A DNA stretch of 39,869 nt, taken from contig JAAWBG010000005.1 of the NCBI GenBank assembly GCA_022792535.1, positions 1 to 39,869 on the forward strand, given 5' to 3'. Below are positions 34,008-39,522 of this stretch, in pieces. A program made the translations under genes and the position numbers. The notes beneath the pieces are model-generated. The model searched no databases. It saw only the letters and a list, made by a program, of their open reading frames with translations, and was not told the DNA's origin. How positions within the stretch are numbered: position 1 is the stretch's first letter; every line of letters starts with the position of its first letter. Source of the stretch: Lachnospiraceae bacterium. Lineage in GTDB: Bacteria; Bacillota; Clostridia; Lachnospirales; Lachnospiraceae.

Positions 34008-35780
34008 CTATAACATAATCACTTTATTTTTGCCAGCCTTTTTCGCCTTGTAGAGAGCCATATCCACACGGGTGCATAAAGTGTCCAGCGTATCTTCTGG
34101 CCTGGCCTGAGTAACCCCTAGACTCACAGTCTGAGGTCTGGCTGTTGGAAAATTTGTATTGGCAAAACACTGCCGGATCAGCTCTGCAATATAAGATGCC
34201 GCAGAAAGTTCCGTACCACGTAAAAGCATCATAAATTCTTCTCCGCCCCATCTTCCAGAAGAAACATTCCGCAAAGAATCTGATGGTTCATTTTTGAGAA
34301 TATCTGCCAGCCCTATAATGACAGCATCCCCTTCTTGATGGCCAAAAGTATCATTGACCTGCTTGAAATTATCAATATCCAGCATGATAAGGGAAAACTT
34401 TTCTTTTTCAATTTCTAAAAGAGCCCCCTCAATTTGAGACTGTATCTCTTTTCTATTATACAAGCCTGTCAAGCCATCGAGGATTGCCGTCATTTTTAAT
34501 TTTTCATTGGCCAATTCCAGCTTCTGATTAATCTCTTCCAATTCCAGGGAAGTCATACTGATAAAGGTAGCCAGCCGGGAAACCAAAGGCACCTTTGACA
34601 AAGTATTTCCTTCCATGGAAGCCCCTGATGCCTGGGAAGATTTTTTCTCACCTTCCCGCATAGCCGCGATCACAAGAGTTACATTGTGCTGATTTAAGTT
34701 TCCGCTTGTACGTAAAAATTCTCCATGAGAAAAAAATCCGCAGGAAGGCGCCATTTCTTGAAAAGGATAAATCTCATATGTAGGTTCTCTGGAAGTCCAG
34801 AAGGTACGCCTTGCGGCGCAGGAAAAAATATGTAATAGATCTGGCTGAAATTCTCCAATCCGTCTGCTGTCCTCTTTAATGCTCTCAAGGATCGTACCTG
34901 GATCTCCATAAGAAATCCGTACCACGGAGCCTACGTCTATATCCGAAGTCATGGTAATGGACCCATCTTCATTGCTTGCCACCGGAGTACGCAGGATTGT
35001 CGTATCATTGTGCTCATAAAAAAGAGGAAATTCCAAGGTATTATAAAAAAAATTCTCATCATTTTTTATATTCAAATATTTGTGATAGACATCATATGCC
35101 GGAATCCCATCTAATTCCTGCAAAATCGAACCCTCTGATTTTGTCACATGGAATTTTCTCCCCAGAGGCTTCCAACCTGTAACTTTTATGGCGTCCACAT
35201 AAAAATCCGCTCCCCCATAAAATACAATAAGAATGGATTTTTCAGAAAATCCTTTCTCACTGGAAAAGACACAGGAAGCGTCGCTTGTAATATCATCACT
35301 GCAGGCAACCCCGCCGAAAATCTGAATATCAGGCCGGACATCCTTCAACCCATCGCAAAAGCCAGTCGTTGACGTCTCTGGAATGGTAAAAAACATCTCA
35401 ATCGCTTTTACCCAGGGGTTTTCTTTCGTCTCTTCCAGGATCTTTTCTGTGATATTATCTACAGAACACTCAGACAGATCATATTGAAACACTTTCACTT
35501 GAGTGGAAGGAAGCTCAAAGGCGGTACATACCACGCTGATCTTCTCTGCCAGCTGACAGTCTATAATATTTCCACTGGTAGAACATCCCATATACAAAGT
35601 CTTTGGAAATATCTGCTCAATGATGCCGCATACAGTCTGAATGATACTCTGTTCTAATACTTCTGAATAGATCTGGAATAATTTTGGAATCATGCTGTTT
35701 GTCTCGCACCATGCTTTAAAATCTGAAAGTTTTTTCGAAAATACTTCTGAATCGTGATATTCAAATTGAAACTGTTTCAT
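34008..35780 (-). CDS. FIST-domain diguanylate cyclase
   Basis: A 590-aa cytoplasmic signalling protein. The first ~390 residues have FIST-N and FIST-C features (TLYMGCSTSGNIIDCQ, IFGGVACSDDITSD, LLHIFSCAARRTFW), a domain proposed to sense small ligands such as amino acids. A short coiled-coil (LELEEINQKLELANEKLKM) links it to a GGDEF domain, with LTGLYNRKEIQSQI, LIMLDIDNFKQVNDTFGH and the active-site GGEEF at residues 512-516. It should therefore make c-di-GMP. The RxxD inhibitory site normally five residues before GG(D/E)EF is absent (L and V at those positions), so feedback inhibition may be lost. No membrane helix. Confidence 0.92.
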   Translation of the reverse strand: MKQFQFEYHDSEVFSKKLSDFKAWCETNSMIPKLFQIYSEVLEQSIIQTVCGIIEQIFPKTLYMGCSTSGNIIDCQLAEKISVVCTAFELPSTQVKVFQYDLSECSVDNITEKILEETKENPWVKAIEMFFTIPETSTTGFCDGLKDVRPDIQIFGGVACSDDITSDASCVFSSEKGFSEKSILIVFYGGADFYVDAIKVTGWKPLGRKFHVTKSEGSILQELDGIPAYDVYHKYLNIKNDENFFYNTLEFPLFYEHNDTTILRTPVASNEDGSITMTSDIDVGSVVRISYGDPGTILESIKEDSRRIGEFQPDLLHIFSCAARRTFWTSREPTYEIYPFQEMAPSCGFFSHGEFLRTSGNLNQHNVTLVIAAMREGEKKSSQASGASMEGNTLSKVPLVSRLATFISMTSLELEEINQKLELANEKLKMTAILDGLTGLYNRKEIQSQIEGALLEIEKEKFSLIMLDIDNFKQVNDTFGHQEGDAVIIGLADILKNEPSDSLRNVSSGRWGGEEFMMLLRGTELSAASYIAELIRQCFANTNFPTARPQTVSLGVTQARPEDTLDTLCTRVDMALYKAKKAGKNKVIML

Positions 35781-36123: not shown

Positions 36124-36309
36124 CTACATTTCTTCCGGCATAATCACCGCCGCAATCAGATACACAATGATTCCTGTTGTGGTACATCCCAGCAGCACAA
36201 ACAGCAGACGCACAATGGTCGGATCAATGTTCAGATATTCTCCTACACCTCCGCACACACCGCAGATTACTCGATTCTTTTTTGACTTATACAATCTCTT
36301 TGGTTCCAT
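36124..36309 (-). CDS. PspC-domain membrane protein
   Basis: A 61-aa protein that consists only of a PspC domain: basic N-terminus MEPKRLYKSKKNRVICGVCGG, the hallmark GVGEYLNIDPTIVRLLFVLL, and a hydrophobic helix ending IVYLIAAVIMPEEM. In E. coli PspC regulates the phage-shock response to membrane stress; short PspC proteins in Firmicutes are thought to act at the membrane, often beside PadR/DUF4097 genes as here. AGAAGGA lies ~6 nt before the ATG. Function in this organism is inferred. Confidence 0.9.
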   Translation of the reverse strand: MEPKRLYKSKKNRVICGVCGGVGEYLNIDPTIVRLLFVLLGCTTTGIIVYLIAAVIMPEEM

Positions 36310-36451: not shown

Positions 36452-37423
36452 TTATAAAACAAATGAAATATCCACATCACCCACACCGCAGTCAATCTCC
36501 ATTTTTTTCTTTCCAGGATTCTTAATGGTGCGCTCAGAGCCAAATCCGCTGTAATCATGGTCTCCTACTTGCAGATTTCCCACATCGCAGGAAATCTCAT
36601 AACTATAATCGGATTCTTTTCCTGCTACTTCCACTTCCACAGATCCTATCCCGCAGCTAATCTCTATTTTTTCCGCCTGCACCTGTGAAGTATACAATTC
36701 TCCGATTCCAGCGCTCATTTCCAGTTCCTCTGTCTCTAACTCATTCAGTTCCATCCGGCCCGCATCTATTTCGGCAGATATTTTTTTAGCAGCAGTCATT
36801 TTCTCTGCCACAAAGCATTCTCCGGCATCTATGTTAAGCTGAATCTCTTCTGCTGTCAGCGGCGTATCCACATGCAGGTATCCCGCGTCCTGATCCACCT
36901 CTATCTTCTTCAGATATCCAGATTCCATCAGTTCTTTCGGAACTCTCATTGTGATTCTGACGCTCTCATCATTGCGGATACGCCAGGTTCCCTGATCTTC
37001 GATCTTTAAAGTCTCTCCGTCCATTACCACCTTCAGCTGCCGTCTGTGATCTTTCTTCCGATACTCCACATCAAGGTAGAGATTCTCTTTATCTCCTGCA
37101 GTATCCTCTTCTATGGAGATACCTGCATAATCCGCGTCTATCTCTATCTTTTTCATATCTTTCCACGCAAACTGAAAGTTCTCTGTCTTTTGACTGGTCC
37201 AGCTCATTTTTCCTGCCTGATCATCCTCCAAATCAAAATCATCGTTATGATACCGAATATATGGAATGTGACGAAGAGGCCCTATGGAAAATTCACCTGT
37301 CTTCACTTCATCCCAGAAATCGGAAAATTGAAAGCCAATTCCCATTCCCACTGCACATAAAGTACCTCCAGCGATTGCCAGAATCAAGGTTATGATCAAC
37401 GCTATCTTTGTAAAATTTTTCAT
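36452..37423 (-). CDS. DUF4097 membrane-anchored beta-repeat protein
   Basis: A 323-aa protein with an N-terminal membrane helix (residues ~7-27, IALIITLILAIAGGTLC in part) and a long region of short repeated beta strands: KIEIDADYAGISIEED, KKIEVDQDAGYLHVDT, EIQLNIDAGECFV, LEMSAGIGELYT, KIEISCGIGSVEVE, KMEIDCGVGDVDI. The repeated I-D-A/C-G-x-G/V pattern is the DUF4097 (putative adhesin/LiaG-like) solenoid. AAGGAGG lies before the ATG at 37423, which overlaps the stop of the DUF1700 gene. The PadR-DUF1700-DUF4097 operon is a known Firmicutes layout of unknown function, likely envelope-related. Confidence 0.88.
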   Translation of the reverse strand: MKNFTKIALIITLILAIAGGTLCAVGMGIGFQFSDFWDEVKTGEFSIGPLRHIPYIRYHNDDFDLEDDQAGKMSWTSQKTENFQFAWKDMKKIEIDADYAGISIEEDTAGDKENLYLDVEYRKKDHRRQLKVVMDGETLKIEDQGTWRIRNDESVRITMRVPKELMESGYLKKIEVDQDAGYLHVDTPLTAEEIQLNIDAGECFVAEKMTAAKKISAEIDAGRMELNELETEELEMSAGIGELYTSQVQAEKIEISCGIGSVEVEVAGKESDYSYEISCDVGNLQVGDHDYSGFGSERTIKNPGKKKMEIDCGVGDVDISFVL

Positions 37424-38175
37424 GCTCTTTCCTCCTTCCTGGAACATAAGCTTCTCCACAATTTTTTAACCAAGCCGCACAGCCAGGGAATCAGTTTTCC
37501 ACATACCCAGCTGGAAAGAATCGTTGCCAGAATTGCCAGAGCCAAAAACAAGAATCCGCCTCCTGTCAAGGAAAGCCCTATTGCCAAATCTCCTGTTACA
37601 ATCTGACTGATTCCAATTCCAACTAAAACACCTCCTACGATATAAAAAGATCCTGCAATACACACTACAGAAATAGCAAGGCCCAGAACGCTGCCTGCAA
37701 TTCCTCCTACCGCACCGATCCAAACAGGACTTGTCAAAATAAGAAGAAAAACGATCAATGCTATCTCTGAAGCAGTTCTTCCCCTATAGACAGAGGCTCC
37801 GTCTCTCTCTGTATCATCTTTACAGACCCCATCCGCTCTATTTGCAGAACGGCTCTTTTCTGTTGAGGCCTGAGCCTGTTTTCCACCTCTAACATTCCCT
37901 TTTCTAAGGTCTACTTCCTGTTTTTCCTCAAATCTGCTGTCCTCAAATCCATGCTCGGTATATTCTCCTGCTGTCCTTGAATCCATGCCAAGATCTGCTT
38001 TGATCGTAGCGGCAACCTTTTCTGGAGATTCTAACTCTTTCAAAATCCGTTCTTCATTCTCCTCTCCAGCGTCCTCGAAATAACTTCGATAGTAAGACAG
38101 TGCCTCCCGTTTTTCTTCCTCTGGCACATCTTGCAGCAGCGCTTCTAACTGTCTTATAAATTCTTCTCTTCTCAT
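37420..38175 (-). CDS. DUF1700 (HAAS-domain) membrane protein
   Basis: A 251-aa protein. The N-terminal ~60 residues are the HAAS helical domain, MRREEFIRQLEALLQDVPEE followed by YYRSYFEDAGEENEERILKELESPEKVA. A charged linker follows (residues ~70-130), then three to four membrane helices. HAAS domains pair with PadR regulators and are thought to transmit membrane state to them (inference from the family). It overlaps both neighbours by four bases (38172-38175 and 37420-37423). Confidence 0.9.
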   Translation of the reverse strand: MRREEFIRQLEALLQDVPEEEKREALSYYRSYFEDAGEENEERILKELESPEKVAATIKADLGMDSRTAGEYTEHGFEDSRFEEKQEVDLRKGNVRGGKQAQASTEKSRSANRADGVCKDDTERDGASVYRGRTASEIALIVFLLILTSPVWIGAVGGIAGSVLGLAISVVCIAGSFYIVGGVLVGIGISQIVTGDLAIGLSLTGGGFLFLALAILATILSSWVCGKLIPWLCGLVKKLWRSLCSRKEERA

Positions 38176-38495
38176 GCCGACTCTCCTCCCGAAAATAACA
38201 TTGTAATTTTAGAAGAATAATTTACCCATTCTGTGCGATATAAATTTAATTGTGCAATTCCTCTTTCTGTGATCTTATAATACCTGCGGTTTCTTCCGCC
38301 GCATTCCACATCATAAACCTCCAGACAATCATCCTTCTGCAGACGCCGCAGCACTGGATACAATGTGGACTCTGATACCTCAATGGCCTTTCGTACATCC
38401 TGGGTGATCTTATAACCATATGTGCCTTCCTCTTCTTTACACACAACCGCAAGAACAATCGCATCTAAAAGAGCTGCACCTGTGTTAAATACCAT
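38172..38495 (-). CDS. PadR-family transcriptional regulator
   Basis: A 107-aa winged-helix regulator: LDAIVLAVVCKEEEGTYGYK, then VRKAIEVSESTLYPVLRRLQK as the recognition region, and GGRNRRYYKITERGIAQLNLY as the wing. The short C-terminal helix is that of subfamily-2 PadR proteins. It is the first gene of the three-gene operon and is the obvious candidate to bind the repeat array in its own promoter region (38517-38635). Confidence 0.92.
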   Translation of the reverse strand: MVFNTGAALLDAIVLAVVCKEEEGTYGYKITQDVRKAIEVSESTLYPVLRRLQKDDCLEVYDVECGGRNRRYYKITERGIAQLNLYRTEWVNYSSKITMLFSGGESA

Positions 38496-38516
38496 TCCAT
38501 CACTCCTCTTTTCTAC

Positions 38517-38635
38517 TACTATTTTATGCGTAGTACTATTTTTTGAATATTACTATTCTTCAGATATTACTGTTTTTTAAATATTACTATTTTATGTTTA
38601 ATACTATATATCATATAGTATTATTTGTCAATACA
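38517..38635. repeat. Seven tandem 17-bp repeats upstream of padR
   Basis: Units start at 38517, 38534, 38551, 38568, 38585, 38602 and 38619, exactly 17 bp apart. Five read TACTATT or TACTATA, one TACTGTT and one TATTATT, each followed by a variable AT-rich part. The first and sixth units each make a TACTA-N9-TAGTA inverted repeat with the next unit (38517-38535 and 38602-38620). The array covers the -10 box, spacer and 5' leader of padR. Confidence 0.85.
38603..38631 (-). promoter_or_regulatory. padR operon promoter
   Basis: On the minus strand TTGACA (38626-38631), a 17-bp spacer and TATAGT (38603-38608). The -10 box lies inside the TACTA-N9-TAGTA palindrome (38602-38620). The leader before padR is about 100 nt and holds the other repeats. 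Confidence 0.75.
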
Positions 38636-38790
38636 TATTTTTATATTATCACCAGGATTTTTCACCTGAGGCTTATTTCTTTTCCACTCCAGCGGGGGTA
38701 ATCTATTTTTTAAGAAGAAATCCGTAAAGGGACAGTTGATTACAACAAATAAAATCCGTATAGTATATATCAACAAAGCCATATAACTTT

Positions 38791-38847: not shown

Positions 38848-39522
38848 ATGAAACTGTTGTATGCAGAAGATGAAAAAAGTATGTCGGATGCCGTAGTAGA
38901 TATTCTTACTTATCATAAATATATAGTGGATGCCGTTTATGACGGAGAAGAAGCCTTGGATTATGCTGCAGCTGAATCGTATGATGGTATTATTTTAGAT
39001 ATTATGATGCCAAAGAAGAATGGTTTTGAGGTATTGAAAACTCTTCGGCAAAAAGGCATCAATACCCCTGTGTTGCTGCTCACAGCAAAGTCAGAAGTTG
39101 AAGATAGAATCGCAGGACTTGATATGGGTGCTGACGATTATCTCCCCAAACCTTTTGCTATGGGGGAATTCCTTGCCCGTGTCCGTGCAATGTTACGTCG
39201 CAAAGAAACTTTTACACCGGACATTTTGAAATGCGCTAACATTTCTCTCAATATGCAAAGCTATGAACTTTCAAATGGGAAGCAAGCCTTTGTTTTGCCC
39301 AAACTTGAATATCAACTTATGGAAATATTTATGCTCAATCGAGGCATTTATTTATCAAGTGAGGACTTGCTTGTTAAGGTGTGGGGCTATGACACCGGCG
39401 CTGAGCTTGGAACTGTTTGGGTATATATTTCATATCTGCGAAAGCGGTTGGCGGCGCTTGACGCCAATGTTGCCATTACCGCCAAGCGTAACGTGGGATA
39501 TACGCTTGAGGTGGTTCAATGA
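38848..39522 (+). CDS. OmpR/PhoB-family response regulator
   Basis: A 224-aa regulator. The receiver has the acidic pair AEDEKS, the phosphoacceptor in GIILDIMMPKKNG (D52), the threonine in VLLLTAKSE and lysine in DDYLPKPF. The C-terminal winged helix contains LPKLEYQLMEIFMLNRG and VWVYISYLRKRLAAL. GGAGTGATG region provides the ribosome binding site. Its stop overlaps the ATG of the kinase gene. Codon use is more AT-biased and less typical of the neighbouring operons, so recent acquisition is possible but weakly supported. Confidence 0.95.
   Translation: MKLLYAEDEKSMSDAVVDILTYHKYIVDAVYDGEEALDYAAAESYDGIILDIMMPKKNGFEVLKTLRQKGINTPVLLLTAKSEVEDRIAGLDMGADDYLPKPFAMGEFLARVRAMLRRKETFTPDILKCANISLNMQSYELSNGKQAFVLPKLEYQLMEIFMLNRGIYLSSEDLLVKVWGYDTGAELGTVWVYISYLRKRLAALDANVAITAKRNVGYTLEVVQ

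Follow-up and report, generated by a model that had tools for sequence, protein, structure and literature searches.

A 17-bp-pitch octamer array as the putative autoregulatory operator of a padR–HAAS–DUF4097–PspC operon in a Lachnospiraceae bacterium

The LltR regulator of Listeria monocytogenes (Lmo0599) is encoded in the operon lltR–lmo0600 (DUF1700)–lmo0601 (DUF4097), which it represses ~100- to 150-fold (PMC6624303). Specifically, mutation of the helix-turn-helix residues L49, R51, and L52 raised expression of the regulator's own operon by ~107- to 151-fold, and an lltR promoter fusion rose more than 50-fold in the LltR mutant (PMC6624303). We found no operator palindrome, inverted repeat, binding motif, or TACTA sequence for LltR in the main text of that report. 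The broader combination of PadR with HAAS, Toastrack, and PspC genes defines HAAS–PadR-like systems, which are tied to the phage-shock response and have been put forward as a substitute for two-component signalling; the sections of this source available to us treat protein domains and gene order, and name no operator (PMC11237479). Operators are better described for other PadR proteins. The classical regulators (Pediococcus and Lactobacillus PadR, LadR) recognize an ATGT-N8-ACAT inverted repeat in the promoter region (PMC4517056), and LmrR of Lactococcus lactis has been described with two dimers on one lmrCD operator (PMC5428041), a single dimer on the lmrCD promoter also being stated (PMC4534193). 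At its own promoter, LmrR binds as several dimers, with a Hill coefficient of 2.43 compared to 1.78 for lmrCD (PMC4534193).

The window (the whole 39,869-nucleotide stretch of DNA analysed here, from a gut bacterium) carries an operon with the gene neighbourhood of a HAAS–PadR system:

38172..38495, minus strand: padR, encoding a 107-aa PadR-type winged-helix regulator (Pfam PF03551, 1.4e-16), the presumed binder of the array
37420..38175, minus strand: HAAS-domain protein (PF22564, 7.5e-12), with a 4-bp overlap with padR
36452..37459, minus strand: DUF4097 (Toastrack) protein (PF13349, 6.8e-10)
36124..36309, minus strand: PspC-domain protein (PF04024, 4.9e-25)

The four genes characteristic of a HAAS–PadR–Toastrack–PspC operon therefore occur together, and the PadR–HAAS/DUF1700–DUF4097 order matches that of the LltR operon. 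The two differ in what follows: the Listeria operon continues with the acetyltransferase gene lmo0602, no PspC gene being named in the part of the source available (PMC6624303), whereas the window has one. By analogy with LltR, the window's operon may be auto-repressed. A gene for a FIST-domain diguanylate cyclase (GGDEF) lies after the PspC gene on the same strand (34008-35780). On the other side, a response-regulator gene starting at 38848 on the plus strand is divergent from padR, and the array lies in their common intergenic region. Among relatives, the gene directly after padR encodes a HAAS protein in 78 of the 79 scanned loci, the window included; the scan left out L048 and L084, where no closed frame was found. 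A single open frame in L074 (4001-5223) encodes PadR joined to HAAS, with a core operator (defined below) and one unit upstream, which suggests that the two proteins work together, an assembly error being possible.

At 107 aa and with a single PadR winged-helix domain, the encoded protein has the size and domain content of the PadR family (PadR-2 subfamily). Its matches in the PDB include SMU.1704 (3l7w, 1.1e-16) and many other PadR entries, among them 3f8b (4.9e-8), which we take to be LmrR. Across 112 PadRs whose genes have this core operator, the tyrosines Y26, Y28, and Y46 are invariant, and the helix SESTLYPVLRRL and the wing GRNRRYY are nearly so; the LftR tyrosines Y28 and Y48 may have their counterparts among these. 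Residues L49, R51, and L52 are present in the window's PadR under the same numbers as those mutated in LltR (PMC6624303).

Upstream of padR, the plus strand carries TACTATT or a variant at seven starts (38517, 38534, 38551, 38568, 38585, 38602, and 38619), each exactly 17 bp from the next as an initial sequence-only reading of the region had claimed, with TACTGTT at 38568, TACTATA at 38602, and TATTATT at 38619. The two TACTA-N9-TAGTA palindromes that it had placed 85 bp apart were likewise found, at 38517-38535 and 38602-38620; this separation corresponds to ~8.1 helical turns and sets the two on the same DNA face. Read in the padR direction, the unit is an octamer TANTANTA with a 9-bp linker, and the seven octamers at 17-bp pitch are, in order, TAATACTA, TAGTATTA, TAGTAATA, CAGTAATA, TAGTAATA, TAGTACTA, and TAGTAGTA, the fourth starting with C. 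This array ahead of padR is real and beyond chance. Tandem Repeats Finder reports it at 38517-38626 (period 17, 6.5 copies, 69% matches), and a repeat search of the array returned five copies of a 49-nt repeat at spacings of 17, 17, 17, and 17. At lag 17, 71 of 102 positions match (38514-38632), compared to 28-46 at the nine other lags reported, and to a mean of 47.6 and a maximum of 59 for the best lag from 8 to 30 in 2000 dinucleotide shuffles. When the whole 352-bp intergenic region was taken, the observed self-match was reached in 0 of 2000 shuffles.

The array overlaps a padR promoter, TTGACA-17-TATAGT (minus strand, 38631-38603), which has 11 of 12 consensus matches in a promoter scan. 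The elements of the region, with the two boxes taken from the scan and the other elements from the sequence, are:

38626..38631, minus strand: -35 box TTGACA
38603..38608, minus strand: -10 box TATAGT, behind a 17-bp spacer
38599..38623, no strand assigned: putative core operator, a 25-bp palindrome with 11-bp arms and a 3-bp centre, lying over the spacer and -10 box
38616..38623, minus strand: octamer -1 (TAATACTA), left arm of the core
38599..38606, minus strand: octamer 0 (TAGTATTA), right arm of the core
38582..38589, minus strand: octamer 1 (TAGTAATA), offset +17
38565..38572, minus strand: octamer 2 (CAGTAATA), offset +34
38548..38555, minus strand: octamer 3 (TAGTAATA), offset +51
38531..38538, minus strand: octamer 4 (TAGTACTA), offset +68
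38514..38521, minus strand: octamer 5 (TAGTAGTA), the last, offset +85
38503..38507, minus strand: ribosome-binding site AGGAG, behind the array

The core palindrome consists of octamers -1 and 0, and octamers 1-5 lie downstream of the promoter in the predicted leader, up to the ribosome-binding site; the last octamer ends 18 bp before the padR ATG, with AGGAG in between. The array thus covers the -10 box and runs down the leader, as had been noted at the outset. An inverted repeat over the padR promoter is present in the window and likewise in relatives. Of the six dimer sites that neighbouring octamers would form in the window, only two are exact TACTA-N9-TAGTA sequences. Two other roles for the array were rejected: tandem promoters, since the scan gives no minus-strand promoter inside the array besides 38631-38603, and phased-A-tract bending, by reasoning only, since repeats every 17 bp do not keep phase with a helix of 10.5 bp per turn. 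Separately, ATAGTATATATCA at 38760-38772, ahead of the divergent response-regulator gene, is 92% like part of the core palindrome, which may be chance.

To compare the region in relatives, we kept the best 80 of 547 padR matches and added 29 loci of the same genus (27 further genomes), many of them on contigs already in the set. Together with the window this gave 110 upstream regions, 18 of which are duplicates over their final 80 nt (mostly one contig present in two collections), leaving 92 distinct. In 87 of these, the leader could be anchored on a TTGAC box with a half-site 20 bases behind; the other five are L013, at a contig end, L028, with its palindrome at another distance from TTGACA, and L080, L115, and L116, without a core. 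Half-sites were counted as [TC]A[GA]TA against 1000 shuffles. They occur at +17 in 77 of 87 leaders (shuffle mean 1.5, maximum 6), at +34 in 50 of 84 (mean 1.5, maximum 6), at +51 in 19 of 76 (mean 1.3, maximum 8), and at +68 in 5 of 44 (mean 0.7, maximum 4); the count at +85, 2 of 25, is by itself within the shuffle range (mean 0.35, maximum 3). Off-register half-sites are few, with one row each at offsets 16 and 18 and nine of 84 at offset 35, reflecting an 18-bp second step. Distances between neighbouring octamers measured without an anchor agree, being 17 in 143 of 175 cases, 34 in 14, and 18 in 6.

The number of consecutive downstream units is variable: 0 in 10 of the 87 leaders, 1 in 28, 2 in 32, 3 in 13, 4 in 2, and 5 in 2 (the window and L012, from Petralouisia muris), such that 49 leaders have at least two. 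These counts come from relatives with common ancestry and are not independent. On a PadR tree (112 rows, 107 columns, weakly resolved), a minimum of 39 changes in unit number is required, compared to a mean of 59.6 for shuffled labels. The expectation that both period and copy number would be kept in relatives therefore holds for the 17-bp register and fails for the copy number, which ranges from 0 to 5 downstream units. Among the 10 leaders without an in-register downstream unit, L044, L058, L069, and L077 show additional palindromes or octamers outside the register. In L044, L058, L069, and L164, which lack in-register units, an additional palindrome follows the core, another route to a multi-site operator. 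Within the array the octamer columns are conserved, and the linker columns are mostly poor except for three A-rich positions before each octamer. An exact register across PadRs down to ~77% identity, with linkers that drift, is nonetheless hard to reconcile with neutrality.

The units also differ in kind along the array. For arrays with at least two downstream units (72 inner and 49 end octamers), inner octamers are mostly TAGTAATR, with G at +2 in 51 of 72 and A at +5 in 51 of 72, whereas end octamers are mostly TAATATTA-like, with A at +2 in 41 of 49 and T at +5 in 35 of 49. In relatives, the core often has this TAATATTA-like form for its left arm as well. A left half-site (T then A/G at +6 and +7) was counted in 68 of 72 inner versus 29 of 49 end octamers, under a rule widened after inspection of the columns; the stricter first rule (TA at +6 and +7) gives 46 of 72 inner versus 37 of 77 end units, one-unit arrays included. 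This contrast fits dimers placed across neighbouring octamers, in which the last octamer would need only its right half. The preceding AAA is rarer at end octamers (31 of 49 versus 59 of 72 inner), which may mean no more than that these are weaker units. The window itself is an exception to the end form, in that it closes with TAGTACTA and TAGTAGTA, neither of the TAATATTA type.

The link between operator and gene was evaluated from the opposite direction using a DNA pattern, blind to protein, consisting of the core and the first unit with up to two mismatches. The pattern matched 39 of 150 genomes of the family (own genome included) at 46 places, and the reversed pattern none. A padR gene lies just downstream in 29 of the 30 loci examined, at PadR identities down to 37%, and the sole exception, L138, is a short locus at a contig end where no padR match was found; four of the 29 padR-linked loci repeat leaders already in the comparison set. 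At class level, the pattern occurred in 11 of 291 genomes, again including the own genome; six of the other ten have padR downstream, and the four without it look like chance. A protein search at order level matched 72 of 196 genomes. Among 29 upstream regions from these, a regular expression found the core palindrome in 15 (by eye some more, weaker), and one unit at +17 follows in five of the 15 by eye (L168, L169, L170, L171, and L177, from three other families). Among the order-level loci L168-L188, a single palindrome like AATATTATA-N5-TATAATATT recurs before PadR genes of other families at ~45-58% identity. The single palindrome is likely the general operator of this PadR group, and looks to be older and wider in distribution, with the longer array an elaboration found mostly in the window's family. 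Within the window's own genome, the core pattern has one exact match, at the array, and the next best has two mismatches; at up to three mismatches it occurs at 30 places per strand, compared to 39 for controls. A two-octamer pattern with up to two mismatches matched only the array (6 places), the reversed pattern giving 2 and 4. A wider regulon was therefore set aside, as no second target stands out in the own genome, weak sites still being possible.

These observations make it probable that the array serves the padR–HAAS–DUF4097–PspC operon as its autoregulatory operator, a PadR operator lengthened to a series of sites. With a spacing that is constant among relatives and a unit number that is not, the most likely reading is a multi-site switch to which the operon's own PadR binds. 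The earlier proposal of a PadR operator array is in this respect strengthened by comparison, as regards the kept 17-bp pitch and the tie to padR genes, whereas PadR binding, repression, cooperativity, and the signal are what we infer, and the titration and graded response of that proposal stay hypothetical. In such a switch, the promoter would be shut by PadR dimers on the strong palindrome of octamers -1 and 0, which spans the spacer and -10 box, and further dimers would occupy the weaker sites of neighbouring octamer pairs down the leader, such that seven octamers would provide six overlapping dimer sites at ~1.6 helical turns per step. Downstream dimers could add repression by cooperativity, by blocking the elongating polymerase, or by holding PadR near the promoter. 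PadR would then be released under membrane stress, for which the HAAS, Toastrack, and PspC proteins would act as sensors, with the unit number setting steepness and threshold. Given the 10 of 87 leaders without an in-register downstream unit, and the many single palindromes at order level, the array appears to be dispensable for autoregulation as such.

More tentatively, PadR may form a short filament on the DNA, starting at the promoter palindrome and extending over the 17-bp units of the transcribed leader as far as a distinct end unit (often TAATATTA), lineages tuning the steepness of the membrane-stress switch by whole 17-bp units gained or lost. A variant compatible with PadR binding, and one that we regard as possible rather than probable, is that overlapping sites exclude each other, which would leave occupied sites in 34-bp registers and make the array a local PadR sink and not a packed filament. 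Neighbouring dimer sites do have one octamer in common, two dimers on one octamer would bring their recognition helices to ~3 bp apart, and the LmrR dimer, at 22 bp, is longer than the 17-bp pitch (PMC5428041). However, a 17-bp step amounts to ~1.6 turns and, reasoning from helical pitch, sets neighbours on nearly opposite faces, in agreement with the different faces originally claimed; moreover, two LmrR dimers are accommodated on one operator, for which QacR and DtxR are named as comparable (PMC5428041).

Binding by PadR could also be confined to the core palindrome as the sole working operator, the downstream units having remained after slippage during replication, or tandem duplication, of AT-rich DNA. 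Unit number does vary among near relatives: L088, the nearest PadR relative of the window (97%), has three units compared to the window's five, and L010, L011, and L012, with identical PadR, have three (four counting TATTA), four, and five, respectively. In addition, the core stands alone in many order-level relatives. We nevertheless consider this explanation unlikely, as half-sites keep an exact 17-bp register across the 87 leaders while most linker positions drift, and slippage would yield alike units without distinct ends, where the observed end units differ in kind from the inner ones. That the number varies mostly by whole 17-bp steps, with distinct end units, argues instead for tuning of a working array.

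Still less probable is a role in RNA, whereby short hairpins or the repeated UAGUAAUA motif in the leader would control translation or transcript stability. Octamers 1-5 are indeed part of the predicted transcript, in which they reach down to the ribosome-binding site, and for the 49 leaders with at least two units the array part folds slightly better than shuffles (mean z -1.06), the lowest values being L025 at -3.57, L011 at -3.35, L012 at -3.07, and the window at -2.42 (window leader z -1.59). Against this, the first members of the octamer series are promoter DNA that precedes the predicted start; DNA inverted repeats yield weak hairpins anyway, with a median energy here of -2.9 kcal/mol; and no Rfam match was found up to E = 1. 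The weak folding excess leaves a transcript role a small probability. Finally, the array's position in a common intergenic region would allow it to serve the divergent response-regulator gene (38848, plus strand), for example as that regulator's own binding site, but this is very improbable given that the block from TTGACA to the leader is kept before padR in relatives while the sequence upstream varies by locus (by eye), and that 29 of the 30 loci reached by searching with core and unit DNA carry padR.

The analysis provides a concrete candidate operator for HAAS–PadR systems, of about AATATTATA-N5-TATARTATT, found before PadR genes down to 37% identity, and its array form is common in the window's family. 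As L011 and L012 differ by one 17-bp unit with an identical PadR, the relatives may offer a natural series for relating operator number to the steepness or threshold of an autoregulated switch.

Relative to described PadR operators, the candidate differs in both motif and arrangement. It does not follow the ATGT-N8-ACAT consensus, its arms being of the TAATATTA / TAGTATTA type, and its half-sites are 14 bp apart from start to start (TACTA to TAGTA), compared to 12 bp in the classical operators, or 14 bp with N10. The classical operator is one inverted repeat and no array (PMC4517056), whereas the window has seven octamers at 17-bp pitch. LmrR resembles the window's PadR as a small PadR protein, and its reported multi-dimer binding gives precedent for such binding by a PadR protein; it differs in its motif (ATGT-N8-ACAT, with N10 in the lmrCD operator) and in responding to drugs, and no in-register array is described in the portions of these sources available (PMC5428041, PMC4534193). 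In the largely open-access literature searched, we found no account of PadR operators arrayed at a 17-bp pitch. Tandem sites that vary in number and serve one repressor are otherwise familiar from MetJ met-box arrays, Fur boxes, and omega-repressor heptads, which are like the window's array in principle but differ in protein fold, pitch, and operon.
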